Positions 3,001-25,602 of a stretch of 26,482 bases of DNA are shown here, in pieces (position 1 is the first letter of the stretch; every line of letters starts with the position of its first letter). Source of the stretch: a virus; the IMG/VR virus record IMGVR_UViG_3300030105_001443, positions 21,085-47,566 of that record. One strand, written 5' to 3'. The notes beneath the pieces were generated by a model. That model was not told the DNA's origin. It saw only the letters and a list, made by a program, of their open reading frames with translations, and searched no databases. Made by a program: the position numbers and the translations under genes.

Positions 3001-6000
3001 TTCAACCCCTACTACACATTTAACTATAGTTGGTAATACTAGTGGAAGCCAAACAGGGTCATTCCACTTTGGTAAATTTGGATCAAGAGGTTTATTACAG
3101 GTATATGATAACTCAACCAGTGCATTTGTAAAATCTCTAAACAGTGATCTCCATATAGGAACTAATCGAGATCAAGATAATGTATACATTAACGTAGGTG
3201 ATAACTGTCCTACGAGAATGTTTGTATCTAGCTCAGGTAAAGTAGGAATTGGTACAACAAATCCTGAACATGCATTAACTGTAATGGGTGATATCTCAGC
3301 AAGTGGTAGAATATTTGGATTAGAATTTCACACACAGCACGTCAGCTCCAGTATAGTATACGTAAGTGGAAGTACTAAATTTGGAGATACTCATGATGAT
3401 AAAGCTCACTTTACTGGTTCTCTACAATTACAGCATACTCAAATGTCTATATTTACTGGTAGCGGTAAATTTGGTTTTGGTATAGATACACCAGCAAGGC
3501 CATTTACACAAAAAAGCCATAAGTTAATGCATATTTCTAGTGGGAGTAATAGAGTTGTAGCGCTCGAGGTTACTAACTGGGAAACTGCATCTGCATTTAC
3601 TGCTGCAGGAGGATCTACCGGTGGTAGTAGTCCAAATACTAACGGTCCAAGAGCTGCTATATCAGTAGTTGCTTTTAATTCAAGTGCTAGTTATGGATTA
3701 GGAGGAACAAAAGGAGCCACGTCTGGAATATTTTCAATGCATCCAGATACATACGAAGGAGCTACAACAGGAAATGATCTTAGTGATGGAGGGGATGTAG
3801 ATTCAGAAGGAAATAGACTACTTCAAGAAGTTTTACATATAACTACTGGGGGAAGTCCTCAAGGTAGTATAAATTTACATGCTAGAGGGGATAGAGGTCA
3901 GCAAATTAGATTCTTCACCGGAAATGATGATGCTAGAAATACAGGTGGTCCAGCTGTTGAAACTCAAAGGATGACTATAAAGCATGATGGAGAGGTTGGA
4001 ATTGGTACTCACGATCCAGCTAGAAGATTACACGTATCGAAATCTATAAATGAAAGTGCAACAACACCTATAGTAAGATTTGAAACATTACCATCCGCAT
4101 CTGATGCTAGCTACAACATGGTGTTAGTAAATGCATCCGGAGATTTATACCAAGGAAATTATAGCCATGTAAATGAAGGTATAGGTATTAGTAGTGCAAG
4201 TATTACTAGCCTTAACAATTATAGTTTTACTTCATCAATAATTACATCATCGGTCTACATAGGATATACTTCAAGTATAACCCATATGCAAACATATGCT
4301 TTAACTTCATCTATAATAAGCGCATCACAAATCATCACGAATGGATTCACTGCATCTAATGCAGATATTACTTACCTTACTACTACACAACTAACAGCAT
4401 CTACTGCTAACATTACGAACTTAACTGCATCAAGTGCAACTGGATCATTTACTGGTTCATTTCTAGGTACCCTTACTGGGACAGCATCCTGGGCAACTAA
4501 TGTTGTTACATCGTCACACGCTTTATTTTCTGTTACGTCGTCACATGCATTAGGAGGTAGTGGATCTTTTCTTGGTTATTTTTCTGGTTCATTATTGGGT
4601 TCAGTTACTGGTTCATTATTAGGAACTGCAAGTTACGGTAGAGATAATGATTGGTACAAACAAGGTGAGATATACGGAGGGGCAGATCCTACTATAGACG
4701 GTCAAGTGTATCATACAGGCAAAGTTGGTATAGGTGATTTTTCTTCAACTGCAATAGCAAGTGAATTGACTGTAAATGGTAATATAAGTGCAAGTGGTAT
4801 AGTTTATGGACAAACTGGTATATCTGGAAGTTATATTAGTGCAAGTAAAGAAATTTATTCAAAAGGCCATATTTCTGCATCAGGTAATATAAGTTCAAGT
4901 GGATATATTATAACTAATGAAGCTCGTGTATTCGGTCATATAACAGCATCAGGTAATATAAGTGCAAGTGGTAATTTACATATTAATTCGTCTGAAAAAA
5001 TTAACGATAGTAATTTAAAAATATTAGTTAAAGATTTAAGTACTGGATTAGTTTACCATACTGGTAGCTTTGGTGAATCCGGACAAGATACTGATTGGTT
5101 TGATTCTAATACAGAGAACAGCGCACCTCATAATACAGGATCAATATACCATAGTGGTTCAGTTGGTATAGGAGATTTCTCTACTTCAGTACCAGTAAGA
5201 CAATTACATATTACACAATCACTTGCAGATTATAAAGCTAAAACTCCACCTGTAAGAATCAGCAGTCTACATAGTGATCCACAAAGAAATATTATGACCT
5301 GGAATTCAGGTTCTGGTGATGTATCTTATACACAATTAGGTTGCGCTTTAGACTTAATGGATAAAGATAATTGCTGTTGTCACCTCCATGAAGATACTAA
5401 TATTTATATTTTCATAGATGATACTAGTTTAAATATTACTGGTAACGCTACGCAGACACCTGACATATTAACAAGGTATGTAATTACCAAGTTTGAAAAA
5501 GATATGAGAGACAGGTACTCATACTGGAAAGGGAATATATATGTCGGTACTGGAGTAACTGGTGAACCAAGAGAACGGTGGTTGTCTTGGATGTCATGGC
5601 CAGCTGTAGGAAATCAGAATGAATTAGGTGCAGGATCTGGTATTACTGGTAGTATGGAATCTGTAAGATGGGCTTCTAACGACGTAACTAGTGAAACTGC
5701 AGGAACATTTGCTTCATCAGACGACTTTACAGCTTTCGGTCAAAGTACATCTAACTACTATCTTGAAAATTCTCCAATAAGTGCATCTGGAATACCTGAT
5801 ACAAATGTAATTATATTTAATATTGTTGATGAAACAAATGCAGCATACCATGGAAATACAGCTCTAACAGGACTCGCTGCAGATTTTAGTGAGCAACCGA
5901 CTGATGATTATAAAAAGGATTATGGATTATTCGTAGGTAACGCTCATACAACTTATGATTGTTTCTCAGGATTTGTTTATGCACTACCCTCTTCACAAAA

Positions 6001-9000
6001 TATAACGCATAATGCAAGGCAAGAATTTGCATTACATTTATATGGAGCAGTAGAACCTGATATTGTTTCACCACAGAATTTTATAGGTGATACTCCAACA
6101 GGGGGTAACTTATCTGCAATAACCGGATCTAATCCGTATGCAAATGCAGCTAACAGTGTCGGTTCTGGAGTATCACCTCACTATGAAGGTGGAATATATG
6201 GATTAAAAAGCCAATCAATATCAGAGAAACATAATTTTACAGCTGGTATAGCATCCTGGTATGGTAATATACCTTACGGAACTGGTATAGCTAGTAATGT
6301 TATAAATAAATCAGGTTCTTGGATACACGGTCAAGCCAGTTTTAGTAACGATATGTTTAAGTACTTCGATGGGAATTCAATAGGAGTTAAAGTTGATGGT
6401 AAGACAATTTGTATAAATGACGCTAATGAATTATTTGTTAGAACTGGATCATTTAGAAGCATGAATGTTACAACATCAACTATAACACACCTTACTGCAT
6501 CTTACCTAAGTTCATCAACTAACACTATCACAAATATGTTTACAGCATCATATGCTAATATTTACAACTTAACTGCATCAATAGCTAGTGTTACTTACTT
6601 TACTGCATCGTATGCTAACATCACACAGTTAACAGCATCTAATGCTACTATAACAAATTTAACTGCATCTAGTGCTAATATAACTAATTTAATTGCTACT
6701 GGATCATTCTATGGCAATCTTCAAGGAACTGCTTCATATGGAAAAGATAATGATTGGTTCGACGCACAGACTGCAACAGGTGACCCATTATTTACAGGTT
6801 CAATATACCATAGCGGTTCAGTTGGACTAGGTGACTTCTCAGGAGCAGGACCTGACCGCCAATTACATATATCTCAATCTCTAAAACAATATGCTGCAAA
6901 AGAATCACCAGTTAGAATAAATAGTTTACACAGTGATCCACAAAAAGCTGTTGTAACATATAATACAGGTTCAGGCGATTTATCTTATACCGAATTAGGA
7001 TGTGCATTAGACTTAATGGATAAAGATAATTGTTGCTGTCACCTAAACGCTAAGACTAATATCTACATCTTTATAGATAATACCAGTATGACCATTACAG
7101 GTACAAATACTGACACACCTCCTATCCTAACCAGATATGTAATTACCAAATTTGAAAAAGATATGAGGGAGAAATACCCTTACTGGAAAGGAAATATTTA
7201 TGTTGGAGAGGGAGATCAAGATTCTCCAGCAGTTAGTTTTGGTAACTATAACTCATCAGGAAATACAGTTAGAGAAAGATGGTTATCTTGGCTATCATGG
7301 CCAGCAATGGGTAATCAAGATGAATTAGGTGTAGGACATGGTATTACAGGTAGTATGTCATCTATTCGGTGGGACCAAACTGGTGCAGGGACTGTTGAAA
7401 CTGCAGGAACACATGCAAGTTCAGACGACTTCCACGCATTTGGATATAGTTCATCTGCATACTATCTTGAAAATGCACCAATTAGTGCATCTGGAACAGT
7501 AGATAAAGACTGTATTGTATTTGCAATGGTAGATGAAGTTAGCTCACTCTACCATGGCTCTTCTACTCTTAATGGTAATGATGCTGACTGGGGAACAGTA
7601 ACTGCGAATTATTATGATACTACACCTGAAGGTGCATCAGTAAATACTAACACAGTTCAACCAACTGCAAACTATAAAGCAGATTATGGAAACTTTGTAG
7701 GATATGCGTATCCTAAATACGATTGCTTCTCTTCATTTGTATACGCCTTACCGTCTTCAAATGGAATCACGCATCTAGCAAGACAGCAGTTTGCGCTACA
7801 TTTATATGGAGCAATTGAAACTGACACTGTAACTACAGCTAACTTTAATGGTGTCTCACCAACTCAAGCTAATCTAAATTCAATACTTACATCTAATCCA
7901 TATGCTAACGCACAAGCTTCTTGTAGTAACGAATCTGGAGGTAGAAATTATTCGAAATGGTACACAGGTGGTGTTTATGGGTTAGCTAGTCAATCTGTAT
8001 CTGAAAAACACGATTTTCCAACCGGTGTAGCAGGATGGTATAATAATTTAAGTTACCCGGTTTCAACAGCAAATATAAACAAATCAGGCTCCTGGGTACA
8101 TGGTCAAGCTAGTTTTAGTAATGACATGTTTAAGTACTTTAATGGTAATTCAATAGGTGTTAAGGTTGATGGAAAAACTATATGTGTAAATGAGTCAAAT
8201 GAATTATATGTAATCACAGGAAGCTTTAGGACTGAGCTTAATGTAACAAAATCAGTAATAAGACATTTAACCTCATCACATGCAGTAATAGATGATTTAG
8301 TTTTAACACATGCAACTATGAGTGGTAACTTCACTCAATCAGGTCATGGTACAGTTAGTGCTTGGGATGGTCACTTCCACTCCTTAAATGTACATACAGC
8401 TTTTACTGCATCCGGACATACAACATTAAGTCGAGTAAACGTTTCAAGGTGGATTCGTTCAACAGGTAGTATATCAACTTTAGGAAATATAACTGCATCT
8501 GGAAATATAAGCACAAGTAATACAATATACGCTAATAATATTGTTATCGGTAGAAGCAGTACAGGTGGTTCAGGTATAAGTGCAACGAATATAACTGCAA
8601 GTAATAATATAACTGCAAGTCAATTATTAATATCACGCAATATTAGATCAACTGGAAGTATATCAACCCAAGGAAACATAACTGCATCAGGAAACATAAC
8701 TGCAAGCCATTTACATGTATCAAGGGATATCCGAGTAACTAGAAACATCCACGTTACAAACAGTATATCAGTTTCAAACGATATTACCGCAAGTGGTGTA
8801 ATAAGTGGTCAAACAGGTTCATACCAATATCTAGGTTCAACTGGGCAATTTAGTGCAAGTGGGTTATTCAATGTATCTGGTACATCTAGATTTCACGGTA
8901 ATACTTATATCACTGGTAACTTATTTGTATCTGATATTGTAATAGCTCAAGAATTTCATACCGAGTTCGTATCAGCATCGATAATATTTGCATCAGGATC

Positions 9001-12000
9001 TAATGTCCTCGGTGATAACCCAACTGATGTACAGCATATAACTGGTTCACTCAGAGCATCAGGATCTGGACCACACTATATTGTAGGAGGTCCTGTTGGT
9101 ATAGGGACCATCCGCGGAACGGTACCAACTGTAAATCCAGCATTCAGCCTTACAGTGTCTGGTTCGATAAGTGCAAGTCAAGATTTATCAGTAGGTGGTA
9201 ATATAACTGCATCTGGTAATATATTCTCTAGCGGGTTTGTTACATCAAGTAAAGGTTTTTACTCATTCGGCGGATTTACAGGATCAATAAAAGGTAATGC
9301 AGATACAGCTACAGCAGCTACTCTTGCAACTAATGCAACTCACATTTCAGTAGCTGATAATGACACAACTAATGAAAATAATTTAATAACATTTATAGAA
9401 GATGAAACTGCTACTGGTAATGTAGGCCTAGAATCAGATACAGATTTTCACTATAATCCATCAACTGGTAGGGTAACAGCTACCCAACTTGCTGGTACTC
9501 TACAGACAGCAGCTCAACCAAATATAACTTCATTAGGAATGTTAACTAACTTAAGTGTTAATAATAATATTCATATTACTGGTTCAGTTATAGCTACGCA
9601 TTTAAGCGCAAGTGGAGGAGTTACTGCATCTGGAATTTATATTAGTGGATCAACTATTTTTGGAGATGGTGATAATGATACACACACATTTACTGGTAAT
9701 ATAACTGCATCTGGTAATATAAGCTCAAGTGCTTTATCTACAGGGTCATTTGGTGTATTAGAAACACCGAAAGGTATAAATTTTGCTAACGCAAACAACA
9801 ATCAAGGCTCTGGTATTATATTTAATCCTACTGATGGTGATAAGATTAAGATCATTGCAGGAACTCGGAATATGATTGAGATTAGAAACCCTAAACTATC
9901 AACTCAGTTATCTGCTGGTGAGGTGGTGATTAATGAGGATAGTTTAGTTATTGATTTCAGGGTAGAATCTGGTGGTAATGATAATATGCTTCTTGTTTCA
10001 GCATCCTCAGATACAGTAGGTATAGGTACAGCTAATCCATGTAAAACTTTAACAGTAGAGGGTGATATAAGCGCAAGTGGTACTGTATATGCTACTAACA
10101 TAAGCGCAAGTGGTGTAATAACAGCAAGCGGATTATCAATTTATGGAAATATAAGCGCAAGCGGGTATATAACAGCAAGTAAAGGATTCTATACTCCGAG
10201 TGGGTTTACTGGATCATTACAAGGAACTGCTGACACAGTAGCTACAAATGCAAACTTATCTGGTGATATAACTTCAATAGGTAATGAGACAGTGATAGCT
10301 GCAGGAGTTATAATTGATAATGATATAAATGCTTCAGCAGGAATAGTAGATACTAAATTAGCAACTATATCAACAGCTAATAAAGTAGAAATAAGTGCAA
10401 TAAATATTGAAGGTGGAACAGATATAGGGGAAGCGCTAGTTAGTACTGACTTGTTTATAGTTGATCACTCTGCCAATGGTACAAATAGATTTGTATCTGC
10501 AGAACGAATTCAAGATTACGTATTAGGTAGTTCAATGACTACTGATATAACAACTACAGGTACAATAACTGCACATACTATTATAGCAACTATAATTTCA
10601 TCATCACGAGTAACTTCATCAATAATATTCTCAAGCGGATCAACTATATTTGGAAATGTACACTCAGATAGTGCAGTACCAGCAGATACTCATACGTTTA
10701 TAGGTAATATAACTGCCTCAGGTAATATAAGCGCAAGTGGGTATTTAACAACACAGCATGTAACAGCCTCAGGTAATATAAGTGCAAGTGGAAATATAAT
10801 AGTTCAAAACATAACTGCATCTGGTTATATTAGTGCAAGTGGTAATATATACACTAACGAGTTACAGATTGGATCATCCTCAAATAGGATCCATGGGTTC
10901 TTTGAGGGTGGTGAGCAAGATTTAATTATAAGTGGTAGTGATAATGATGTAAAAATAATGTCTGGAGATGATATATCACTACGACCTAAAAATTCTGTAA
11001 AAATATATACAGGTAATGCTGCAGATGAAGGACTAATATTACAAGACAAATCAGGTAAAACATTATTCTCAGTTTTAAGCGATGGTTCTGGAGCAACTAC
11101 AGCAACTGGATTATTAAGCTCGAGTAGAATAGAAGTTGCAACTAATATATTTGCAACAGGTAGTGTATCAGCAAGCTTCATAAGTGCAAGTAAAGGTTTA
11201 TGGACTTCCGGTTCATTATATGCAAGAGATATATTTGCTACAGGATCTTTAACACTAGGTGGACCAACTTCAACACATACAATAAAAGGAAATATAACAG
11301 CCTCAGGTAATATAAGTGCAAGCTCTGTAAATGTTTCAAAGGGGATTCGTTCAACAGGTAGTATATCAACTTTAGGAAATATAACTGCATCAGGAGAAAT
11401 AAGTTCAAGCAGTACAGGTTCATTTGCATATTTGAGAGTAGTAGCAAATCCAGAACCAGCAGCAGCTAATAATGTAGTAATAGCTGAGTTTGTAGGTGAT
11501 TCAGATTCACTTATAATTAAGAATGAATCAACAGGTGACTATTCAATTGGTAATAGTGCACAAGACAATAAAATCATGTTCAAAGATGGAGCTGGTGGAA
11601 TAGATTTCTTTTATAATAATGTAAATACATTAAATGTCACTGAGCACGGGATAGGTATTGGTGGTAATTATCCCACAGACACAAACTTAACAAACGCAGC
11701 TGGAATAATGCTTCAAGTCCGAGGTAATATATCAGGATCAGAAAATATAACGGTTGAGGGATCAGGTTCATTTGGAGGTCACGTAACAGCTTCAGGTAAT
11801 ATAAAAGCAGGAGGCAATATAATATTAGATGATGGTGGTGAGATACAAGAAGCAGGAGGAACATCTGCATTTACATTTGACGGTAGTGGTAACGTTACAA
11901 AAATAGGTCAAGATTCACCATCAACAAATGAAGTTTTAACTTGGGATGGATCTAAATGGGTAGCTGCAGCAGGAGGGTCAGGAGGTTCTTCAGCAGCTGA

Positions 12001-12715
12001 TGATATTACAGCAGGAGATGCAGCAGTTGATATTACAACAACAGCTGGTAATATAACTTTAAGACCGCAACCAGCTGGTTCATTAATTGATTTAAGAGGA
12101 ACACTTACAGGTGGTGGTACTAAATCAATAATTATCCTTAATACAAGCGGAGATGGTGGAGCTCATATTAACGGACACGTTACAGCGTCAGGAAATGTTA
12201 GTCAATCAAATTGTGATTATACTGCTTCATTTGGTCGTTTAGAAGTTTGTGGAAGAGCTTTAATAAATGGTAATTTAGAGTTAGGTGGTGAAATAGTAAG
12301 AGAGGGTACAACCACTGGTACAGGAATAGGTATAGGTACTAATGGTCAAGTTACAGTAGCTGGAATTCTGATAGCTGACCAGGTAGTTCGCTCTGCAGAT
12401 GGTTCGACTGTAATAACGATAGATAATAATGGTAACGCAGCCATTGCAGGTAATCTAACAGTTAGAGGTGAGATAGTAAATAAAGCAGATGATGGTGATG
12501 ATGATAAGGGTATAAAATCAGAAGTGCGTGGTGATAAAAAAGATATAGTTACCAAAAATGAAGAGAATGGATCAAAAATTATTACCAGGATTCAAAATGC
12601 AGCAGACTCAAAATTTGAAGTTCAAAAGAATGACGGAAGTAAATCAGTCCTGTTTAGTGTAGATAAAGATGGTAAATTAGAAGGATTATTCGACTATGAT
12701 GGAGGAGAGTACTAA
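2..12715 (+). CDS. Giant repetitive tail-fibre/adhesin-like virion protein (5' partial)
   Basis: The reading frame is open to the left edge, so the Met at 203 is internal and at least 4237 residues are encoded. After a non-repetitive start (to about nt 1500) the protein is built from Ser/Thr/Gly/Ala/Asn-rich repeats. Recurring units include ITASGNISASGN, GTASYGRDNDW and HSGSVGIGDFS, with strings of TASxANITxLTAS. Such beta-rich repeats are typical of long trimeric phage fibres and other tail appendages, probably for host attachment. Two roughly 460-residue modules are duplicated (5093-6460 and 6752-8233). The C-terminus is charged and Asp/Lys-rich, and I see no S74 intramolecular chaperone domain. 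The last stop lies 8 nt before the next gene. The structural role is inferred from composition and context; a baseplate-linked or head-fibre role is also possible. Binding target unknown. Confidence 0.8.
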   Translation, partial: QDITNVNPGEPGSPYTISGSYSSTYNSQPTGSGTGGVSYTLTTVPDATSTGVATIQVLFGDLRFSSSMVGGTMYVSGGINHLSGLQPYPNQFHTIPAYYATISAVLNGTTAEVIPAYQVQGSGDRGLPYYPTSFNTKNGHQHTWTETSNSISFTDPTAPSSSITRQFLTKEINISYADIEVFDLKPDCGAATFMDIYCKSDRYSGNETKLAQVAIEPFNFLIDEISTLGTKVFAKPIGEFPNDFETNLYWEIGNGGNTHKGQSTSAQHNTSTLMNSVKVDGANLTADDYIVFNNKADFDPTLYKDTSYFIDFDATSDVGGDHKPVVDVYISGSKVTPTNLQNPSETILGQHIGTLTNNSNGYQQFLNNSFEYRNEVSTAVNLRFVVRSGTWHIRGVRLMNCPGEIRDTGITPNHTRLLIPMPTLAKADDCYSFTLRYSNKNAVGNIETKTASCTIFSGTDPGPLLDSHGGDGDWFIGQHVLTSSRDVWISGSLIVSGTIFADEFYTNIVSKSISQINVSGSSTFGDDCADTHVFTGSIKQHCGDIFGGGSLTIQNITASGDVSISNILYADTVIASTASITNMYTYALTSSYISNSYNITTNYITASYGNIYHLTGSFTGTIGGLNTIIHATGSIEGTASYGRDNDWYAQGSTYVGGLGGIDPTIGGEIYHTGRVGVGDFSSNNLPPGVGVHSSPMFTVTGSTSMSMGKAGSRPLFVRANTSSMFFQDVPKSDNHDWDGAALYLDGQNGDGIGNDYSAIANTSFGSLVLVTGNGHKLMPKVEITPSGSMFINSGSLSVGFKRDGIEGAGFGGDITASGNISASGNLHISSSEKPDDNSLKILLKDLSTGLVYHTGSFGGDDLGNHTATQDLDMNNSSISNSLHITASGTGSFGYIRVTGQGVIDGPLGVGLLEPTGGMFNVSGTSRFQGNTYITGNLFVSDIVVAQEFHTEFVSASITFASGSNKMGDTSDDVHQMSGSVRVTGSGPNYFVGGGHFGINTSTPTTHLTIVGNTSGSQTGSFHFGKFGSRGLLQVYDNSTSAFVKSLNSDLHIGTNRDQDNVYINVGDNCPTRMFVSSSGKVGIGTTNPEHALTVMGDISASGRIFGLEFHTQHVSSSIVYVSGSTKFGDTHDDKAHFTGSLQLQHTQMSIFTGSGKFGFGIDTPARPFTQKSHKLMHISSGSNRVVALEVTNWETASAFTAAGGSTGGSSPNTNGPRAAISVVAFNSSASYGLGGTKGATSGIFSMHPDTYEGATTGNDLSDGGDVDSEGNRLLQEVLHITTGGSPQGSINLHARGDRGQQIRFFTGNDDARNTGGPAVETQRMTIKHDGEVGIGTHDPARRLHVSKSINESATTPIVRFETLPSASDASYNMVLVNASGDLYQGNYSHVNEGIGISSASITSLNNYSFTSSIITSSVYIGYTSSITHMQTYALTSSIISASQIITNGFTASNADITYLTTTQLTASTANITNLTASSATGSFTGSFLGTLTGTASWATNVVTSSHALFSVTSSHALGGSGSFLGYFSGSLLGSVTGSLLGTASYGRDNDWYKQGEIYGGADPTIDGQVYHTGKVGIGDFSSTAIASELTVNGNISASGIVYGQTGISGSYISASKEIYSKGHISASGNISSSGYIITNEARVFGHITASGNISASGNLHINSSEKINDSNLKILVKDLSTGLVYHTGSFGESGQDTDWFDSNTENSAPHNTGSIYHSGSVGIGDFSTSVPVRQLHITQSLADYKAKTPPVRISSLHSDPQRNIMTWNSGSGDVSYTQLGCALDLMDKDNCCCHLHEDTNIYIFIDDTSLNITGNATQTPDILTRYVITKFEKDMRDRYSYWKGNIYVGTGVTGEPRERWLSWMSWPAVGNQNELGAGSGITGSMESVRWASNDVTSETAGTFASSDDFTAFGQSTSNYYLENSPISASGIPDTNVIIFNIVDETNAAYHGNTALTGLAADFSEQPTDDYKKDYGLFVGNAHTTYDCFSGFVYALPSSQNITHNARQEFALHLYGAVEPDIVSPQNFIGDTPTGGNLSAITGSNPYANAANSVGSGVSPHYEGGIYGLKSQSISEKHNFTAGIASWYGNIPYGTGIASNVINKSGSWIHGQASFSNDMFKYFDGNSIGVKVDGKTICINDANELFVRTGSFRSMNVTTSTITHLTASYLSSSTNTITNMFTASYANIYNLTASIASVTYFTASYANITQLTASNATITNLTASSANITNLIATGSFYGNLQGTASYGKDNDWFDAQTATGDPLFTGSIYHSGSVGLGDFSGAGPDRQLHISQSLKQYAAKESPVRINSLHSDPQKAVVTYNTGSGDLSYTELGCALDLMDKDNCCCHLNAKTNIYIFIDNTSMTITGTNTDTPPILTRYVITKFEKDMREKYPYWKGNIYVGEGDQDSPAVSFGNYNSSGNTVRERWLSWLSWPAMGNQDELGVGHGITGSMSSIRWDQTGAGTVETAGTHASSDDFHAFGYSSSAYYLENAPISASGTVDKDCIVFAMVDEVSSLYHGSSTLNGNDADWGTVTANYYDTTPEGASVNTNTVQPTANYKADYGNFVGYAYPKYDCFSSFVYALPSSNGITHLARQQFALHLYGAIETDTVTTANFNGVSPTQANLNSILTSNPYANAQASCSNESGGRNYSKWYTGGVYGLASQSVSEKHDFPTGVAGWYNNLSYPVSTANINKSGSWVHGQASFSNDMFKYFNGNSIGVKVDGKTICVNESNELYVITGSFRTELNVTKSVIRHLTSSHAVIDDLVLTHATMSGNFTQSGHGTVSAWDGHFHSLNVHTAFTASGHTTLSRVNVSRWIRSTGSISTLGNITASGNISTSNTIYANNIVIGRSSTGGSGISATNITASNNITASQLLISRNIRSTGSISTQGNITASGNITASHLHVSRDIRVTRNIHVTNSISVSNDITASGVISGQTGSYQYLGSTGQFSASGLFNVSGTSRFHGNTYITGNLFVSDIVIAQEFHTEFVSASIIFASGSNVLGDNPTDVQHITGSLRASGSGPHYIVGGPVGIGTIRGTVPTVNPAFSLTVSGSISASQDLSVGGNITASGNIFSSGFVTSSKGFYSFGGFTGSIKGNADTATAATLATNATHISVADNDTTNENNLITFIEDETATGNVGLESDTDFHYNPSTGRVTATQLAGTLQTAAQPNITSLGMLTNLSVNNNIHITGSVIATHLSASGGVTASGIYISGSTIFGDGDNDTHTFTGNITASGNISSSALSTGSFGVLETPKGINFANANNNQGSGIIFNPTDGDKIKIIAGTRNMIEIRNPKLSTQLSAGEVVINEDSLVIDFRVESGGNDNMLLVSASSDTVGIGTANPCKTLTVEGDISASGTVYATNISASGVITASGLSIYGNISASGYITASKGFYTPSGFTGSLQGTADTVATNANLSGDITSIGNETVIAAGVIIDNDINASAGIVDTKLATISTANKVEISAINIEGGTDIGEALVSTDLFIVDHSANGTNRFVSAERIQDYVLGSSMTTDITTTGTITAHTIIATIISSSRVTSSIIFSSGSTIFGNVHSDSAVPADTHTFIGNITASGNISASGYLTTQHVTASGNISASGNIIVQNITASGYISASGNIYTNELQIGSSSNRIHGFFEGGEQDLIISGSDNDVKIMSGDDISLRPKNSVKIYTGNAADEGLILQDKSGKTLFSVLSDGSGATTATGLLSSSRIEVATNIFATGSVSASFISASKGLWTSGSLYARDIFATGSLTLGGPTSTHTIKGNITASGNISASSVNVSKGIRSTGSISTLGNITASGEISSSSTGSFAYLRVVANPEPAAANNVVIAEFVGDSDSLIIKNESTGDYSIGNSAQDNKIMFKDGAGGIDFFYNNVNTLNVTEHGIGIGGNYPTDTNLTNAAGIMLQVRGNISGSENITVEGSGSFGGHVTASGNIKAGGNIILDDGGEIQEAGGTSAFTFDGSGNVTKIGQDSPSTNEVLTWDGSKWVAAAGGSGGSSAADDITAGDAAVDITTTAGNITLRPQPAGSLIDLRGTLTGGGTKSIIILNTSGDGGAHINGHVTASGNVSQSNCDYTASFGRLEVCGRALINGNLELGGEIVREGTTTGTGIGIGTNGQVTVAGILIADQVVRSADGSTVITIDNNGNAAIAGNLTVRGEIVNKADDGDDDKGIKSEVRGDKKDIVTKNEENGSKIITRIQNAADSKFEVQKNDGSKSVLFSVDKDGKLEGLFDYDGGEY
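2480..2575 (+). repeat. 32-codon fibre block, copy 1
   Basis: Encodes a block starting HISSSEKPDDNSLKILLKD and ending LVYHTGSFG. A second copy lies at 4979-5074. Both copies follow an ASGNISASGN repeat. Confidence 0.75.
2756..2893 (+). repeat. 46-codon conserved fibre block, copy 1
   Basis: Encodes a block beginning FNVSGTSRFQGNTYITGN and ending SASITFASGSN. It matches 8867-9004 in 43 of 46 residues, although 25 other codons differ synonymously. The protein sequence is therefore conserved while the DNA has diverged. Confidence 0.8.
4979..5074 (+). repeat. 32-codon fibre block, copy 2
   Basis: Second copy of the block at 2480-2575, differing at about six residues near its start. The second half (KDLSTGLVYHTGSFG) is identical at the protein level. 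Confidence 0.75.
5093..6460 (+). repeat. Duplicated fibre module, copy 1 (CCCH-containing)
   Basis: About 456 codons inside the giant gene, running from a DWFD sequence to DGKTICIND plus about 15 residues. It is non-repetitive and rich in aromatic residues (for example RERWLSW and YYLENSPISASG), unlike the flanking Ser/Gly repeats, so it is probably a globular domain inserted in the fibre. It contains the cluster DKDNCCCHL (Cys-Cys-Cys-His at nt 5372-5383). Copy 2 lies at 6752-8233. Confidence 0.8.
6752..8233 (+). repeat. Duplicated fibre module, copy 2 (CCCH-containing)
   Basis: Second copy of the module at 5093-6460, about 494 codons. The order of motifs is the same: DWFD, LHSDPQK, DLMDKDNCCCHL (CCCH at nt 7031-7042), LTRYVITKFEKDMR, RERWLSWLSWPA, YYLENAPISASG, FALHLYGA, SWVHGQASFSNDMFKYF and DGKTICVN. 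Insertions relative to copy 1 sit near the RERWLSW motif and in the surface-like middle part, while the core motifs are nearly identical. This suggests an old tandem duplication with loop divergence. Confidence 0.8.
8451..8499 (+). repeat. 49-bp perfect direct repeat, copy 1
   Basis: Identical over 49 bp to 11343-11391. It encodes the IRSTGSISTLGNITAS segment. A diverged third version of the same protein segment lies near 8640-8690. The two perfect copies are 2892 bp (964 codons) apart and in the same frame. Confidence 0.85.
8867..9004 (+). repeat. 46-codon conserved fibre block, copy 2
   Basis: Second copy of the block at 2756-2893. The three amino-acid differences are Gln/His, Val/Ile and Thr/Ile. 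In both places it is followed by a GD-containing spacer and a Gly/Ser repeat. Confidence 0.8.
11343..11391 (+). repeat. 49-bp perfect direct repeat, copy 2
   Basis: Identical over 49 bp to 8451-8499. Recombination between the copies would remove 964 codons in frame and leave the C-terminal end of the fibre gene intact. Confidence 0.85.
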
Positions 12716-12723
12716 TTATTATT

Positions 12724-15156
12724 ATGGATATAAAGGAAACCTTTGGTAGCTGGATAGCAGCTCAAGTTCTAAACGAACAGAAAGAGATTAAAACTGTAGT
12801 TGCAATTTACCCAGGTAGATTTCAACCTATGGGGGCACATCATGCTCAAGCTTTTAAATCTTTACCATTTAAAAATAAATTTATTGCTACTTCAAATAAA
12901 GTATCAAAACCTAAATCACCTTTTAGCTTTGCAGAAAAGAAAAAAATTATATCAGCTTACGGATTAGGTGGTAAGTTAAAACAAGTACGAAATACTTATA
13001 AAGCTGAAGAAATACTAAAACGTTATGATCCAGAAACTACTGCAGCTATATTTGTGGTTGGAGCTAAGGATGCATCTAGATTAGGTGGTAAGTTTTTTCG
13101 ACCTTGGAAAGGTACAGCCGAAGTAGGGTACAGAGAAGGTGCGTACACCTATATAGCACCGCATGTCTCAATGAACGTACCAGGTCACGGTGAGATGTCA
13201 GGTACCACACTACGAGCAGTGCTTGGTGATAAGAATTTAGAGGATTCAAAAAAACGCAAGATATTTACTAGTATATTTGGTAAAGCAAATATACGAAATT
13301 ATGACTGGATCACGAAAAAACTAGAAAGCTTATCAGAAGCAGTTATCGAGCAATTTATAGTAGATAATGATTTCGCTAAAATAATATCAGAAGTATCTAG
13401 CACAGGTACATCTAAGGGAATGGAGGTAGATGATGGACCATCGCACGGATTTGGAAGCTTAAAATCATATAAAAAGGTTCAAAAGAAGGTTGCAGAGAAA
13501 ATGGGATGGATGGTATTAAATCAGTTACTAGATTTAGGAGACGGCGAAACTGTTCTAGCTAGTGATGATATACCAACACCATCAAATCATAGACGCTCAG
13601 TAAAATATCCTAATGGACCTATTACAGCCGTATCATTCTTTCCAGCTGGAGATCAGGGAGTAAAAACTCCTAGTAATCAAATTGATATGTCAACTAGTGC
13701 AGCTTATAGAAAATGGAAAAAGCATATAAAGAAAATTGCAACAGAAGTTGGAATGCAATTAGTAAATTGGGTAGACTCAGATGTAGCTAAAGATAAGAAA
13801 AATATTGAAGGTGATAAAATAAAAGAACCAAATCGACCTGATAAAGCAATATCTAAAATGGTTAAGAAAATTGCTAAAATAAATAAACCTGATCGTCAAG
13901 ATAAGAAAGCAATTAAAAATCTTAAAGATTTATCTATAACTGAAGAGGTAAAGAAGTTAATAAATGAAGGTGGAGCATATGGACATATGTCTCACCCATT
14001 TGATGATAAAGGGTTAACGTTTGGTGACTTTAAGCAAATTATAGATAACTCACTACAAGGCCATTTAGACCTTGAAACATCTGCTACAGAAAAGACTGAT
14101 GGTCAAAATTTATTTATTACCTGGAACAAGAAGCTATTAGCTGCAAGAAATGGTGGAGATCTTAAACGTGGTGGAATGGATGCGAAAGGTGTTAAGTTAA
14201 AATTTGCAAATAGAGGTAATATTGAAAAAGCGTTTAACTATGCTATGAGAGATCTCTCAAAAGCAATTGGGAGTTTAAGCGATAAGCAAAAGAAAAAAAT
14301 ATTTGATGATGGTAACAATTGGGTAAATATGGAAATTATGTATCCAGCATCTGCTAATGTAATCGTATACGATGCGCCATATTTACAATTCCATAATGTG
14401 CTACAGTATAAAAACGGATCTGCAATTGGATCAGTATCAGGAGGAGCTAGAGTACTTGCAGGGATGATATCACAAATTAATCAGAGTTTACAAAAAAGCT
14501 TCAGTATAATTGGTCCACGATCATTAACTATTAAACCGCATCAAGATTTTGGAGCACGTAGACCATACTTTGTAGGTAGGTTAAGCAGTCTGATGTCTGC
14601 ATACGGGATGAAGAATAGTAATACATTTGGTGAATACCATCAAGCTTGGTGGGGTAATTTTATAGATAATAAGTTCAAAGGTATAGATAACACTATCCGA
14701 ACTGGGTTAATAAAGCGTTGGGCATTCTTTGATAAATCGTTTAGGTTAGATAAAAAAAACTTCACAGATGAGAATATGTTAGCAATAGCTAAAGGGTATG
14801 ATAAGATGGACCATGCAGGTCAAGTAAAGAAAAATATGCTGCCGTTTGAAACTCTATTCTTTCAATTAGGAGCTGAAGTATTAAAAAATGCAGAAGGATT
14901 CCTAGCGGCAAGTCCAGATAAAGCTGTTCAGAGTATAAGACGCCAGTTAGCAAAAGCCATATCTGATGTAAGAAAGGGAGGTGATCTTAAGAAGTTAAAT
15001 AGAATGACTCAGCAGTTAAACAAGATACAAGCTATTGGTGGATTTAAAACTATAGTACCTTCAGAAGGTTTAGTGTTTATTTATAAAGGTAAAACTTATA
15101 AATTAACAGGAGCATTTGCACCAGTCAATCAAATAACTGGAATGATGGCATTCTAA
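12724..15156 (+). CDS. Fusion: NMNAT/cytidylyltransferase-like + unknown + ATP-dependent ligase-like domain
   Basis: The 810 residues form at least three parts. Residues 23-200 look like a nucleotidyl-transferase: GRFQPMGAHH at 31-40 occupies the place of the GxFxPxHxGH motif, and MSGTTLR at 158-164 that of the ISxTxxR motif. Residues about 224-405 match nothing I recognise. Residues about 416-810 carry a ligase/capping-enzyme set: EKTDG with candidate nucleophile Lys457, RNG at 475-477, NMEI with Glu537, EGLVF with Glu781 and YKLTG with Lys793. The expected chemistry is NMN or CTP adenylyl/cytidylyl transfer at one end and nucleotidylation or strand joining at the other; substrates are unknown. 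Linkers contain LSE/A (205), ISE/V (223) and INE/G (415), and the N-terminus ends its leader at LNE (18), all fitting the T4 gp21 cleavage consensus. I recall related architectures in marine T4-like phages. Confidence 0.75.
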   Translation: MDIKETFGSWIAAQVLNEQKEIKTVVAIYPGRFQPMGAHHAQAFKSLPFKNKFIATSNKVSKPKSPFSFAEKKKIISAYGLGGKLKQVRNTYKAEEILKRYDPETTAAIFVVGAKDASRLGGKFFRPWKGTAEVGYREGAYTYIAPHVSMNVPGHGEMSGTTLRAVLGDKNLEDSKKRKIFTSIFGKANIRNYDWITKKLESLSEAVIEQFIVDNDFAKIISEVSSTGTSKGMEVDDGPSHGFGSLKSYKKVQKKVAEKMGWMVLNQLLDLGDGETVLASDDIPTPSNHRRSVKYPNGPITAVSFFPAGDQGVKTPSNQIDMSTSAAYRKWKKHIKKIATEVGMQLVNWVDSDVAKDKKNIEGDKIKEPNRPDKAISKMVKKIAKINKPDRQDKKAIKNLKDLSITEEVKKLINEGGAYGHMSHPFDDKGLTFGDFKQIIDNSLQGHLDLETSATEKTDGQNLFITWNKKLLAARNGGDLKRGGMDAKGVKLKFANRGNIEKAFNYAMRDLSKAIGSLSDKQKKKIFDDGNNWVNMEIMYPASANVIVYDAPYLQFHNVLQYKNGSAIGSVSGGARVLAGMISQINQSLQKSFSIIGPRSLTIKPHQDFGARRPYFVGRLSSLMSAYGMKNSNTFGEYHQAWWGNFIDNKFKGIDNTIRTGLIKRWAFFDKSFRLDKKNFTDENMLAIAKGYDKMDHAGQVKKNMLPFETLFFQLGAEVLKNAEGFLAASPDKAVQSIRRQLAKAISDVRKGGDLKKLNRMTQQLNKIQAIGGFKTIVPSEGLVFIYKGKTYKLTGAFAPVNQITGMMAF

Positions 15157-15191: not shown

Positions 15192-15422
15192 ATGAATCTA
15201 GATATTAACATAGGTGATACAATACTTACAGGTCGTTTTAAAAATAAACGGATTGTAGTTAAAGAGTTTGGTGTAGACGAAAAAGGTCAACCAACTATTA
15301 ATGGAAGACCTATATTAAAATTTAGAATAGAAAAATTAATGCCTTCCAAACAAGATAAAACTGAAAACGATATCACAGAGTTTGTTAGTAAAGTTATAGA
15401 TAATCAAATCAATAAAAGATAA
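15192..15422 (+). CDS. Small conserved phage protein, unknown function
   Basis: 76 residues. The pattern GDTILTGRFKNKRIVVKEF followed by GQPTINGRPILKFRIEKL suggests a small all-beta domain (alternating hydrophobic residues with Gly turns), then a charged helix-like tail. I recall similar small proteins near head and terminase genes of marine T4-like phages, but no function is known to me. There is no Shine-Dalgarno sequence before the ATG; the 16 bases upstream are a TA-rich promoter-like element. The next gene starts 3 nt after its stop, so the two are probably co-expressed. Confidence 0.65.
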   Translation: MNLDINIGDTILTGRFKNKRIVVKEFGVDEKGQPTINGRPILKFRIEKLMPSKQDKTENDITEFVSKVIDNQINKR

Positions 15423-22120: not shown

Positions 22121-23251
22121 ATGCTATTCAATATTAAAAACTGGCAAGATAAACACTTAATCAAGGAATCTAAATTGAAAGAGATAGATTTCAAAGATAA
22201 AGCTGCGTTTGATAAATATCAATCTAAACTTAAAACTAAAATGCGATCAACTACCAAAGTGAACATTGCTGGTAAAGATACAACAGCTGGTGAAGCAGGT
22301 GGTAAAGAAACGACTGCAGGTGGAGCAGCTTCATCAACATCATCTGCTCACGCGAGTAAATTTACTCCAGAACAAAAGAAATCAGTAGTAAGTTCTGCAG
22401 CTGTACGGATCTCCAGAGATATTTCAAATGAATTTGGAAGAACTAAACATCCTAAATACGACTCACAGATGATGATGAGCCCTATAAGCAAAATATATAT
22501 GACTGGAATGTCAATTGATGACGCTATGACTGAGATAGGCAGCCTTATGGGTACTGAATATGAAAACACTCGTATGACTTCATATGGTGAACCCAAAAAA
22601 GAAAAGCATTCTCTCGTACCCATGACAAAGAAATTTGAAAAACAATTGCGTACTCAAATGGAACGTGTGTATACCGGAGAGGCTGATAGTTGGATTAATG
22701 GAGTCAGTAATAATAATGATGAATTTGAAAATATAGATCCAGAAGTCGGTAAGCGAATAAAGGCTAATGCAGCCAAGCAAGACGCTGTAAAACGGGCAGA
22801 GTCCGACAAAAAAACGAAAGCATATAATATTCAGCAAGCAAAGGATAAAGCTGAAAAGCTAAAAAATAGAACACCAAAAGAAACTGAAAAAGCAAAAACA
22901 CAATTCAAATTTAGTGAATCTGATTATGAATCTCCAAAAGAGTATCGAGATAATGTTAAGGATATATTGCAAAAGACATATGATTTAGATAAAGTTGATC
23001 CAGATAGAATGCAACAAATGATTGATGGTGCAGACGAATACTTTTACGATGAAGCAAGATCAGCAGGAAAAGCTGGCAGACGGTCTAAACCCACAAGTGC
23101 AAAAAACTTCGCTAGTTATATAGAGCAGTACTTTGATGAAGATGGTGTTAAGCCAAAAAATGAATCAATTACATCTCGATCCACAAGAATACAAGAAGCA
23201 AAGATATATCGAACTATTCAAGAGCTTAAAGGGTTAGAGAGAGGTTTATAA
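22121..23251 (+). CDS. Conserved head-region protein with capsid-targeting-like leader
   Basis: 376 residues. The leader MLFNIKNWQDKHLIKE ends in Ile-Lys-Glu followed by Ser, a good T4 gp21 cleavage consensus. A Gly/Ala/Ser/Thr low-complexity linker follows (about 50-80), then a conserved-looking segment around YDSQMMMSPISKIYMTGMS, a charged coiled-coil-like region (about 205-265) and a helical C-terminus ending with further sites (IQE/A at 357-360 and IQE/L at 366-369). I do not recognise the fold. Position before the protease gene suggests a prohead core protein cut during maturation, comparable in place to T4 gp67/gp68. It abuts the next gene exactly. Confidence 0.6.
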   Translation: MLFNIKNWQDKHLIKESKLKEIDFKDKAAFDKYQSKLKTKMRSTTKVNIAGKDTTAGEAGGKETTAGGAASSTSSAHASKFTPEQKKSVVSSAAVRISRDISNEFGRTKHPKYDSQMMMSPISKIYMTGMSIDDAMTEIGSLMGTEYENTRMTSYGEPKKEKHSLVPMTKKFEKQLRTQMERVYTGEADSWINGVSNNNDEFENIDPEVGKRIKANAAKQDAVKRAESDKKTKAYNIQQAKDKAEKLKNRTPKETEKAKTQFKFSESDYESPKEYRDNVKDILQKTYDLDKVDPDRMQQMIDGADEYFYDEARSAGKAGRRSKPTSAKNFASYIEQYFDEDGVKPKNESITSRSTRIQEAKIYRTIQELKGLERGL

Positions 23252-23758
23252 ATGGAATCATACATCAAAAAAATGTTAAGCGAGCTAGAAGAATCTCAAG
23301 AAGAATTAGATGAGATGAGTGTGACTGGCAATCTTGATGGTGGTGAAGGACCTCCAAAAACTCCTATGGCATTTGGTAAAGGTCGTAACATGGATAAAAA
23401 GAAAACTAAAGATATATCTACAAACAGTACTGGATTTTCTTTAGTAAAAGAAAAACCAAAAAAGGTATACAAAGGAAATATGGGTGAATCAGTGTACAAG
23501 CAGGTAATGAGTGAGATAAACTATCGCGATTATAAAAAAGACGAATCCATGTCAGCTAAGAAAAAGGTTAATACATCTATTAGAGAAGTTAACCGAAAGC
23601 TTTACGAAATAGAACGAATAATTCATCAGAACAACAAGTTAAAAACTGAGATGGGTGTAACAAGTGAAAACTATTGGAAGTCAACACAAACTAAATTTTC
23701 AAAAATTAGTGAGCGCATGGTACGAGTAGGTCACGCAATGAGGAAACTGGGATCATAA
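23252..23758 (+). CDS. Conserved head-region protein, unknown function
   Basis: 168 residues. A leader MESYIKKMLSE ends in a Leu-Ser-Glu site, followed by an acidic stretch and a Gly/Pro segment (MSVTGNLDGGEGPPKTP) that I recall in marine T4-like phages. The C-terminal half (about 95-168) is a basic helical region, NYRDYKKDESMSAKKKVN onward. No catalytic motif is visible. The start codon directly follows the stop of the gene before, and the stop overlaps the protease start as TAATG, so the three are translationally coupled. Confidence 0.6.
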   Translation: MESYIKKMLSELEESQEELDEMSVTGNLDGGEGPPKTPMAFGKGRNMDKKKTKDISTNSTGFSLVKEKPKKVYKGNMGESVYKQVMSEINYRDYKKDESMSAKKKVNTSIREVNRKLYEIERIIHQNNKLKTEMGVTSENYWKSTQTKFSKISERMVRVGHAMRKLGS

Positions 23759-24390
23759 TGGAAAGAAAAGTATTAGTAGATTATATACCATTCAAGGTAT
23801 CACCACAGCAGATTAATGAATCAATAGCTAATAATGATGGTAGGGTAATAGTTGAAGGTGTGCTACAACGTTCAGGAGCTAAAAATCAAAACGGTAGAAT
23901 ATATCCAAAAGATATTCTAGCAAGAGAGGTAGCTAACTATAAGAAAACTCAGATAGCAGAAAAACGAGCTTTAGGAGAGCTTGATCACCCAGAATCATCT
24001 GTAGTGAATTTAAACAATGTATCTCATAATATATTAGATTGTTGGTGGGATGGTGATGATGTAGTAGGTAAAGTAGAGATTCTAGGTACTCCATCTGGTA
24101 ATATTTTAAAGGAACTATTAAAAGCTGGTATCCTATTAGGTATAAGCTCAAGAGGATTGGGTTCAGTTAGAGAGCTAGATGAAGGTACAGTAGCAGTTGA
24201 AGATGATTTTGAACTTATATGTTGGGACTTTGTATCTAATCCATCTACACATGGAGCATTTATGAAGCCTGTACAGAGTGAAGGTGTACTAGCAGAAGGT
24301 GTATTAAAACAAAATCAAAGTTATGCAAAAGCAAATACAATTATTAGAGACATCCTCTGTGAGATGAAAGGTTGCTGTCCAATAGACTAG
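23758..24390 (+). CDS. gp21: Prohead maturation protease (T4 gp21-like)
   Basis: 210 residues, near T4 gp21 in size. It would be a serine protease that acts inside the prohead, degrades the scaffold, trims capsid, portal and core proteins after (Leu/Ile)-x-Glu, and then digests itself. The family pattern is clear: NGRIYPKDIL (45-54), ALGELDHPES with likely catalytic His77, then GILLGISSRGLGS (124-136) with likely nucleophile Ser130 or Ser131, and ELICWDFVSNPS (142-153). A self-cleavage candidate (INE/S at 19-22) lies near the N-terminus. Three cysteines end the protein (Cys196, Cys206 and Cys207), with no evident role. Its overlap by 1 nt with the upstream gene implies coupled translation. 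Confidence 0.9.
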   Translation: MERKVLVDYIPFKVSPQQINESIANNDGRVIVEGVLQRSGAKNQNGRIYPKDILAREVANYKKTQIAEKRALGELDHPESSVVNLNNVSHNILDCWWDGDDVVGKVEILGTPSGNILKELLKAGILLGISSRGLGSVRELDEGTVAVEDDFELICWDFVSNPSTHGAFMKPVQSEGVLAEGVLKQNQSYAKANTIIRDILCEMKGCCPID

Positions 24391-24399
24391 GGAATAATT

Positions 24400-24885
24400 A
24401 TGATTAGAATGAAAAACATATTAAGTGAAACTAAGCAAGAAGAAAATTACAAGAAATTAAGTAGTAAACAACGTAAGCTTGTACTTGACGCAGTTAATAA
24501 ATTTAATAAATTTGAACAACATGTATATAGACAGAAGGATGTCAAAGAAGTTGTAGAAGCTATTAAAACTATTAGTGAATATGCAGGTAGATTAGCACTG
24601 GATGAAACAGAGGATTGGTTTGATGGTGTAACTGTTAAGAAGGATGTTAAAGATATTAATGAAAGTGTTAAGATTTTTGAAAAAACTGCAAAGGAGGTTA
24701 GTACTTTACAACACCGCTTAGAAGCTATGTACGAGAATATTGGTGGTAAGTTAAGCCGTTATTACGAAATAGATAACGTTGATGTAACAGTACCAGTTGC
24801 TCCTAAAAATGCTAACCTTAAAGAAAAACAGGTCTTCTATACAGATAAGCAAAATAGAAAACGTAAATTTGACGATGGCAAATAG
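24400..24885 (+). CDS. Conserved head-region protein with capsid-targeting-like leader
   Basis: 161 residues. The leader MIRMKNILSE ends in Leu-Ser-Glu. The body is helical and heptad-like (about 15-125) with a WFDGVTVKKDVKDIN segment that I recall from marine T4-like phages, and a basic C-terminus (DKQNRKRKFDDG). Function unknown. It follows the protease by 9 nt behind a TAGGGA ribosome-binding site and is likely a prohead core or internal head protein. Confidence 0.6.
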   Translation: MIRMKNILSETKQEENYKKLSSKQRKLVLDAVNKFNKFEQHVYRQKDVKEVVEAIKTISEYAGRLALDETEDWFDGVTVKKDVKDINESVKIFEKTAKEVSTLQHRLEAMYENIGGKLSRYYEIDNVDVTVPVAPKNANLKEKQVFYTDKQNRKRKFDDGK

Positions 24886-24891
24886 AGAAAT

Positions 24892-25113
24892 ATGATGAAC
24901 TTTAAAGAACAATTCAAAAGAATAGGTGGCAAGTTAAACGAAGAATATGTTGAATCTATGGATTCTATAAAACTAGATAAGCATTTAGGTGAAATTGAAA
25001 AGCTTTGGAAGAAATGGAAAACTGGTCCTATGACAGAGAGAGATGATATCAAACCTGCTGGTGACGAATTAACACATTATATTTTGTTATGGATGAGAAA
25101 AACGTTCAAATAA
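24892..25113 (+). CDS. Small conserved protein, unknown function
   Basis: 73 residues from the first of two adjacent ATGs (24892 and 24895). A leader ending GGKLNE fits the gp21 site. It is followed by LDKHLGEIEKLWKKWKTGP and a helical tail ending LLWMRKTFK. I recall a similar short Trp-containing family in marine phages but no function. It is the last gene of the group that begins at 21266, and a 75-nt gap with a promoter-like element follows. Confidence 0.6.
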   Translation: MMNFKEQFKRIGGKLNEEYVESMDSIKLDKHLGEIEKLWKKWKTGPMTERDDIKPAGDELTHYILLWMRKTFK

Positions 25114-25188: not shown

Positions 25189-25602
25189 ATGGCTTACAAC
25201 AGAAACCAAAAACATCGTAATCAATCTGATACGAATTCTAAGAACTTCGATTCTAAGAAACCACATTTCAAAAAAAGAAAAAAATTAACCCGAGAAGATT
25301 TTCAAATACCTGGGTGTCCAACTGCAGTTAGAGTACCAGAAGGAGATATAGGTCAAGCATTGAAGCGTTTTAAAAAAATGATGAAGATGACAGGAATCAT
25401 TGATGAATATAAAGATAGGAGGAGATATGAAAAACCTTCTAAGCAACGATATATAGAGAGGGTGAGAGCTGAGGGAATGCAGAAGAAAAACACTAAACGT
25501 GAGATATCTATGGATAACAATTATGTCTGGGAGATGAGAGATATGAATGCAATTTCACGCTCTACTCCAGTTAAACGCACACGTGTATCGAATAATAAGT
25601 AA
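25189..25602 (+). CDS. rpsU: Phage-encoded ribosomal protein bS21 with N- and C-terminal extensions
   Basis: 137 residues, roughly twice the length of a bacterial bS21 (about 70). Residues 46-87 carry the family signature: VRVPEG, then ALKRFKKMMKMTGIIDEYKDR with RRRYEKPSKQR, the same order as E. coli S21 (ALRRFKR, AGVLAE, YEKPTTER). A basic N-terminal extension (1-45, with a Lys/Arg run at 28-32) and a 50-residue C-terminal extension flank it. bS21 sits on the 30S platform next to the anti-Shine-Dalgarno, so a viral copy could replace the host protein and alter mRNA choice. Phage bS21 genes are known, including in marine T4-like phages. This one has its own promoter-like element, no Shine-Dalgarno, and a terminator behind it. 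Confidence 0.88.
   Translation: MAYNRNQKHRNQSDTNSKNFDSKKPHFKKRKKLTREDFQIPGCPTAVRVPEGDIGQALKRFKKMMKMTGIIDEYKDRRRYEKPSKQRYIERVRAEGMQKKNTKREISMDNNYVWEMRDMNAISRSTPVKRTRVSNNK

Follow-up and report, generated by a model that had tools for sequence, protein, structure and literature searches.

Conserved candidate prohead-protease sites lie between NMNAT-like and RNA ligase-like domains of a putative head-packaged phage polyprotein

An 810-residue protein encoded by an uncultured T4-like phage is likely to be a polyprotein that is packaged in the head, processed in trans by the prohead protease and delivered into the host. Packaging, cleavage and injection are inferred, and the family lacks virion and cleavage data. 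The comparisons do show that (Leu/Ile)-x-Glu sites, hereafter (L/I)xE, are conserved at the domain borders, that the ligase portion of some relatives is instead released by an internal start codon, that the gene is split at the same border elsewhere, and that capsid proteins of related phages carry the same type of site. The window, by which we mean the whole 26,482-nucleotide stretch of DNA that was analysed, makes up the right-hand 26.5 kb of an uncultured virus record of 47.6 kb that is itself a fragment, and relatives of the polyprotein are present in at least 547 viral stretches. The relevant features of the window are as follows, with arrows marking candidate cuts.

12724..15156, + strand: polyprotein coding sequence, a real open reading frame of 810 aa with an ATG start
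12724..12777, + strand: N-terminal leader, residues 1-18, with a modelled helix at 7-17, ending LNE18↓Q
12787..13323, + strand: NMNAT/cytidylyltransferase-like domain, about residues 22-200, with GRFQPMGAHH and MSGTTLR (PF01467, Foldseek)
13336..13338, + strand: Glu205 codon, candidate cut site LSE↓A, (L/I)xE in 97% of 61 homologues
13339..13392, + strand: helical peptide 206-223, ending at Glu223 (13390-13392), candidate site ISE↓V, (L/I)xE in 100%
13393..13758, + strand: middle "DDGP" domain, about residues 224-345, function unknown, with conserved VDDGP and a low-confidence model
13759..13968, + strand: variable linker ending at Glu415 (13966-13968), candidate site INE↓G, (L/I)xE in 100%, pLDDT below 50 over residues 387-423
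13969..15153, + strand: Rnl1-like ligase domain, residues 416-810, starting GGAYGHM (model pLDDT 87.3; T4 Rnl1 match)
14092..14094, + strand: candidate nucleotidyl-lysine K457, in motif I EKTDG
15192..15422, + strand: free-standing 76-aa module, found inside the polyprotein in other phages
23758..24390, + strand: prohead protease of the Peptidase S77 (gp21) family, proposed to make the cuts (PF03420, E 3.9e-34)

The original prediction, made without database searches, held for all four candidate sites (LNE18↓Q, LSE205↓A, ISE223↓V and INE415↓G), each at its stated position, and for the ligase-type residues EKTDG with K457, RNG (475-477), E537, EGLVF (E781) and YKLTG (K793). The neighbouring prohead protease that it invoked was confirmed only in part, since the enzyme belongs to the same head-gene cluster but is encoded 8.6 kb downstream rather than adjacently.

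The folds are predicted by modelling to be NMNAT-like and T4-Rnl1-like, with modest scores. Searches of Pfam, PHROGs and PDB sequences with the single window protein as query gave no significant match, and the protein itself misses the Pfam CTP_transf_like family (PF01467), which matches 31 of 38 homologues (best 3.2e-5). By Foldseek, the first domain matches the NMN adenylyltransferase NadM (2qjo, E 1.7e-3, prob 1.00). With PF01467 in 31/38 and this structural match, the domain has the fold expected of the HIGH superfamily, and it also has the SxTxxR motif, S159-G-T161-x-x-R164 being invariant in the alignment. It does not have the canonical HxGH: the window clade carries GAHH or GKHH, and other relatives HSGH or HRGH. 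It is possible that GAHH in place of HxGH reflects altered or lost NMNAT activity.

For the ligase model, the best PDB match by Foldseek is T4 RNA ligase 1 (2c5u, E 3.4e-3, prob 0.98), which is weak at a TM of about 0.28. Next in rank come Rnl2, a capping complex and DNA ligases. In a profile alignment, motifs I, Ia and III line up with their T4 Rnl1 counterparts, although the alignment by itself falls short of significance (E 0.28). Residues K457, E537, E781 and K793 are invariant in homologue alignments. An hmmsearch of the PDB with the ligase alignment returned only chance matches (ribosomal protein eS6) and was set aside.

The position of the (L/I)xE sites provides the first line of evidence for cleavage. 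The window protein has seven such motifs (positions 5, 18, 205, 223, 368, 407 and 415), and in 61 distinct close homologues taken from IMG/VR only those ending at E18, E205, E223 and E415 recur in more than 50%, with frequencies of 87%, 97%, 100% and 100%, respectively; at position 18 the glutamate itself is kept in 97%. The middle residue of each site and the surrounding linkers vary freely, and the linkers differ in length and content while the site glutamate persists. Within the folded NMNAT-like domain there are 0.07 (L/I)xE motifs per protein, compared with 0.93 in shuffled sequences, and within the ligase domain 0.49 compared with 1.99. In linker 201-235 there are 2.59, compared with 0.69. 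The motif is thus depleted in the folded domains and enriched in the linkers, a pattern that is not due to chance.

For calibration, (L/I)xK and (L/I)xG are also conserved, at 5 and 7 positions, but mostly inside the folds, and therefore it is the position of (L/I)xE, not its count, that constitutes evidence; the informative point is that every conserved (L/I)xE sits at a domain border. For the same reason we rejected the idea that the conservation is a general property of hydrophobic-x-charged motifs. A further set of 102 distinct proteins, mostly from a second, more divergent clade with NMNAT and ligase domains in one frame, has, in 83 of 99 cases, a pair of sites ahead of the middle DDGP domain, compared with 1.1% of control windows. 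The segments around E223 and E415 have a pLDDT below 50 in the full-length model; E18 sits where the leader helix ends, and E205 is part of a helix, modelled with low confidence, outside the folded domain. The proposed check of site conservation and exposure, insofar as it could be run on sequence, was passed, with the sites kept at domain borders in homologues and E223 and E415 falling in the pLDDT <50 segments.

The junction before the ligase occurs in alternative states. In a census of 226 distinct ligase-domain starts, for which the search patterns left out the junction residue, Glu precedes the ligase GG in 187, and every one of these (187/187) has Leu or Ile at -2. Met replaces the junction Glu in 37 starts, with an AGGAG Shine-Dalgarno sequence just upstream in 35 of the 37 (typically AAAGGAGTTATTATTAATG) and GGGG or GGGAG variants in the remaining 2; AGGAG is found at none of the 187 Glu junctions. 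The upstream reading frame is still open in the Met cases. The Fisher value for this association overstates independence because the sequences are related. A tree of 224 ligase domains requires 12 changes between Glu and Met by parsimony, at least 7 of them forced on well-supported branches, although some of these switches could stem from recombination in the upstream part of the gene. Most simply, there is selection for a ligase that begins at or just before GGAYGHM, achieved through either a protease cut or a second start codon. Because an internal start replaces the cut site in some relatives, the pieces are most likely released as separate enzymes. The first residues, GGAYGHM (window 13969-14000), are almost invariant yet modelled as disordered, and may have a role after release. 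There is one leftover fused case with Cys at the junction (L302:3053, RILLLC|GGAAGHM), which has no protease site and no ribosome site, and one locus, L083, has no recognisable ligase junction.

Gene fission occurs at the same border. The uncultured jumbo phage LR756500 encodes the ligase as a gene of its own (421 aa), which starts MKFLKSYEEFLNENLILE↓GGSYGH with its own leader, and the next gene encodes an NMNAT-like protein. A second copy of the leader precedes E415 in 24 of 60 close homologues, counted where no stretch of the protein resembles its own N-terminal leader more closely than the 11 residues ahead of E415, with a shift of one residue allowed. From sequence alone, we infer that two leader-bearing proteins may have been joined. 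The helical peptide 206-223 is possibly another such second leader. The 76-aa module forms part of the polyprotein in 90 loci and is encoded separately, just downstream, in 6, with no locus having both, and a leader-like (L/I)xE was not seen in the stand-alone frame at 15192-15422. A P-loop kinase module (Zeta_toxin/AAA_33) is embedded in the polyproteins of five loci (L106, L107, L112, L130 and L145), that of L107 matching polynucleotide kinase weakly, and these modules fit an RNA-repair kit, as would be expected for RNA repair. A separate AAA_33-type kinase was not found on the window's record, which is a fragment. The polyprotein of L097 carries an embedded PF05618 Zn_protease-like module. 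In another module, Cys is the first residue after the candidate site in all eight copies ((I/V)xE↓CIA...GKNRDRN; L151 at about 5200, L152, L147, L292, L301, L307, L309 and L313). It is possible that this module resembles an N-terminal-nucleophile hydrolase activated by the cut, which is a mere lead, as Pfam and PDB gave no support for an Ntn-hydrolase identity.

The gene neighbourhood contains a candidate protease. Downstream of the polyprotein gene are encoded a terminase, a portal, the S77 prohead protease and a ribosomal-S21-like protein, which together we read as a T4-like head cluster. The order of protease, S21 protein and terminase is also kept in an isolate, Microcystis phage Mel-JY01 (PP395634), whose homologue of the polyprotein is annotated merely as a cytidylyltransferase-like protein. 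The S21-like gene (window 25189-25602) adjoins the prohead protease and scaffold, and has the same place in Mel-JY01. A strongly acidic, repetitive reading frame at 25793-26482, which runs past the end of the record, is probably the scaffold protein. Directly upstream of the polyprotein gene is a 4170-aa reading frame (203-12715) without a confident Pfam match.

T4 gp21 cleaves after L/I-x-E, removing leaders of 7 to 65 residues, and a 10-residue capsid-targeting sequence is enough to package foreign proteins in T4 (PMC9026906). In T4 IPIII, an Asp at position 10 prevents processing (PMC9026906). The T4 internal proteins IPII and IPIII begin MKTYQEFIAE↓A, a useful comparison for the polyprotein leader; residues 1-18 are, by inference, a candidate capsid-targeting propeptide with its cut site. 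Of 10 proteases related to the one in the window, 9 have an (I)xE site of their own at residue 21. At about residue 60, gp23-like capsid proteins from related phages carry QLI(S/K/D)E↓(A/S/N), in all 8 distinct sequences; the site is taken from relatives because the window's own record ends before the major capsid gene, which is absent from it. The polyprotein's E223 site, commonly IIKE↓AS, is of the same type. The relatives' capsid site is followed by A, S or N, and E415 by G. Hence the polyprotein combines what is found for gp21 substrates and T4 internal proteins: a leader ending in (L/I)xE, an S77 protease in the same phage and, in relatives, the capsid type of site. A conserved leader could not be demonstrated for every head protein of the window, as there were too few homologues for 22121-23251, 24400-24885 and 24892-25113.

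NMNAT-like proteins have been detected in the virions of cyanophages. Mass spectrometry identified them in S-SCSM1, S-CREM2, S-CBWM1 and S-SZBM1 (PMC9602691, PMC10665884), with the caveat from its authors that CsCl-purified virions can carry co-purified non-virion proteins (PMC9602691). The S-SCSM1 virion NMNAT (PMC9602691) begins MKSFLQFLKE↓A, and its domain is related to the NMNAT-like domain of the polyprotein (hhalign E 4.7e-5). Namat of NARP1 was dropped as a comparison, since it is Nampt-like, not NMNAT-like.

In the mechanism that we propose, the leader would take the precursor into the prohead core, as the capsid-targeting sequence of T4 does for internal proteins, and the S77 protease would cut it after (L/I)xE at 18, 205, 223 and 415 during maturation. 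Three products are predicted: residues 19-205 as an NMNAT-like enzyme, residues 224 to about 415 as a DDGP protein and residues 416-810 as an Rnl1-like ligase with GGAYGHM at its N terminus. They would remain in the head and be delivered into the host along with the DNA. In the host, the most likely roles would be repair by the ligase of RNA that defence systems have severed, similar to the tRNA repair carried out by T4 Rnl1, and restoration of NAD by the NMNAT-like enzyme. The literature describes phage RNA ligases as acting with polynucleotide kinases to mend tRNA that host defences have cleaved, and NAD-synthesis enzymes of phages as countering NAD depletion (PMC7824862, PMC9503650). Several points count against the proposed mechanism: the lack of virion and cleavage data, a capsid site known only from relatives and not followed by G as E415 is, the modelled helix around E205, the weak ligase fold match, the missing CTP_transf_like match of the window protein, the altered HxGH and the stand-alone module without a leader-like (L/I)xE. 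Both roles are guesses from family, with no activity data: taken alone, RNA repair might as readily prove wrong as right, and NAD repletion is slightly more doubtful than that. The originally inferred release by the protease and injection are supported by the conserved sites, the start-codon switch, the fission, the duplicated leader and the capsid motif, with packaging, cleavage and injection remaining inferences. Nothing specific supports NAD-linked capping, also proposed then; the families are a better fit to NAD repletion and RNA repair.

Three alternatives were considered, and each is very unlikely. First, the protein might be an uncut bifunctional enzyme in which (L/I)xE is kept for structure. 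In its favour, cyanophage S-PM2 has a fusion of reversed order (591 aa), which suggests that the two domains are functionally linked, and helices commonly end in hydrophobic-x-Glu. Against an uncut enzyme, the changes from Glu to Met coincide with Shine-Dalgarno sites, the ligase has a separate gene in LR756500, the linkers vary while the glutamate stays, the sites are in disordered linkers and the motif is depleted in the folds. Second, only the ligase might be retained, with the NMNAT-like and middle parts forming a long disposable propeptide, as SPN3US head proteins have multiply-cut N-terminal propeptides of 111-254 residues (PMC10052503). However, the NMNAT-like fold and SGTxxR motif are conserved, the domain comes with a leader of its own, and mass spectrometry has found NMNAT-like proteins in virions of cyanophages. 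Finally, an unpackaged enzyme of the infected cell, encoded by chance in the head cluster and with unused (L/I)xE motifs, is suggested by T4 Rnl1, which works in the infected cell (database record note), and by the possible contamination of CsCl-purified virions (PMC9602691), but has against it the conserved (L/I)xE leader, the duplicated leader before the ligase, the motif shared with capsid and protease sites and the head-gene neighbourhood also kept in Mel-JY01.

If the head-packaged polyprotein is real, the head protease would be a polyprotein processor, with a logic comparable to that of eukaryotic RNA viruses and beyond the removal of scaffold and leaders. Head-carried phage enzymes and their cut points would become predictable from sequence alone, for the unannotated cargo of many uncultured aquatic phages. 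Packaged NMNAT-like proteins have turned up repeatedly, and without explanation, in cyanophage virions; their roles would become directly testable, and the packaged NMNAT-like protein and ligase could be tested together as an immediate counter-defence. A bolder reading, which as a whole we consider more likely than not, is that aquatic T4-like phages widely carry multi-enzyme polyprotein "infection kits", with each module behind a prohead-protease site. The modules would be NMNAT-like, P-loop kinase, ParB-like, a possible N-terminal-Cys hydrolase and ligase; capsid maturation would free, and perhaps activate, the injected enzymes, and evolution would freely exchange protease sites, internal starts and separate genes to make the same pieces. 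In the open-access literature searched, outside which most subscription papers fall, we found no description of an NMNAT-ligase polyprotein cut between its enzymes by a head protease, nor, in that open-access literature, of a switch between protease site and start codon.

Several known systems share parts of this arrangement. T4 Rnl1 is the best, if weak, PDB fold match of the polyprotein ligase, and motifs I (KxDG), Ia and III of the two line up in an alignment that lacks significance by itself, but identity is about 10%, an alpha-helical insertion separates motifs III and IV, and T4 Rnl1 is not listed among the T4 internal head proteins. Phage NadM/NadR NMN adenylyltransferases share the HIGH-superfamily fold, and NMNAT-like proteins are found in cyanophage virions, whereas the window clade has GAHH for HxGH and the polyprotein has no Nudix or NadR kinase domain attached. 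The S-PM2 protein S-PM2d138 (L164:262-2037, 591 aa, annotated as hypothetical) also couples a ligase-like with an NMNAT-like domain, but in reversed order (ligase-like first) and at another genome location; since its profile comparison with the polyprotein is not significant, the link is supported solely by fold and motifs.

Polyvalent proteins (Iyer et al. 2017, PMC5512222) likewise combine disparate enzymatic domains in one polypeptide, with predicted injection and mosaic shuffling. Two or more unrelated enzymatic domains, which define them in part, are present here as NMNAT-like and ligase-like folds, with more modules in relatives. The NMNAT/ligase architecture is not described in the relevant sections of PMC5512222, according to which 2H domains of polyvalent proteins never associate with RNA ligases. 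Their processing has been proposed to occur via embedded zincin peptidases (PMC5512222), which are common but not universal among them and of which Pfam finds none in the window protein, whereas the polyprotein sites match the capsid protease acting in trans. The closest parallel is with T4 IPI-III and Alt, which likewise have a short N-terminal leader, (L/I)xE cleavage, an S77 protease in the same phage and delivery with the DNA (PMC9026906). Unlike those proteins, which are single enzymes with propeptides at their ends (Alt being cut at both), the polyprotein has its domains joined with sites between them, and its cargo is NMNAT-like and ligase-like.
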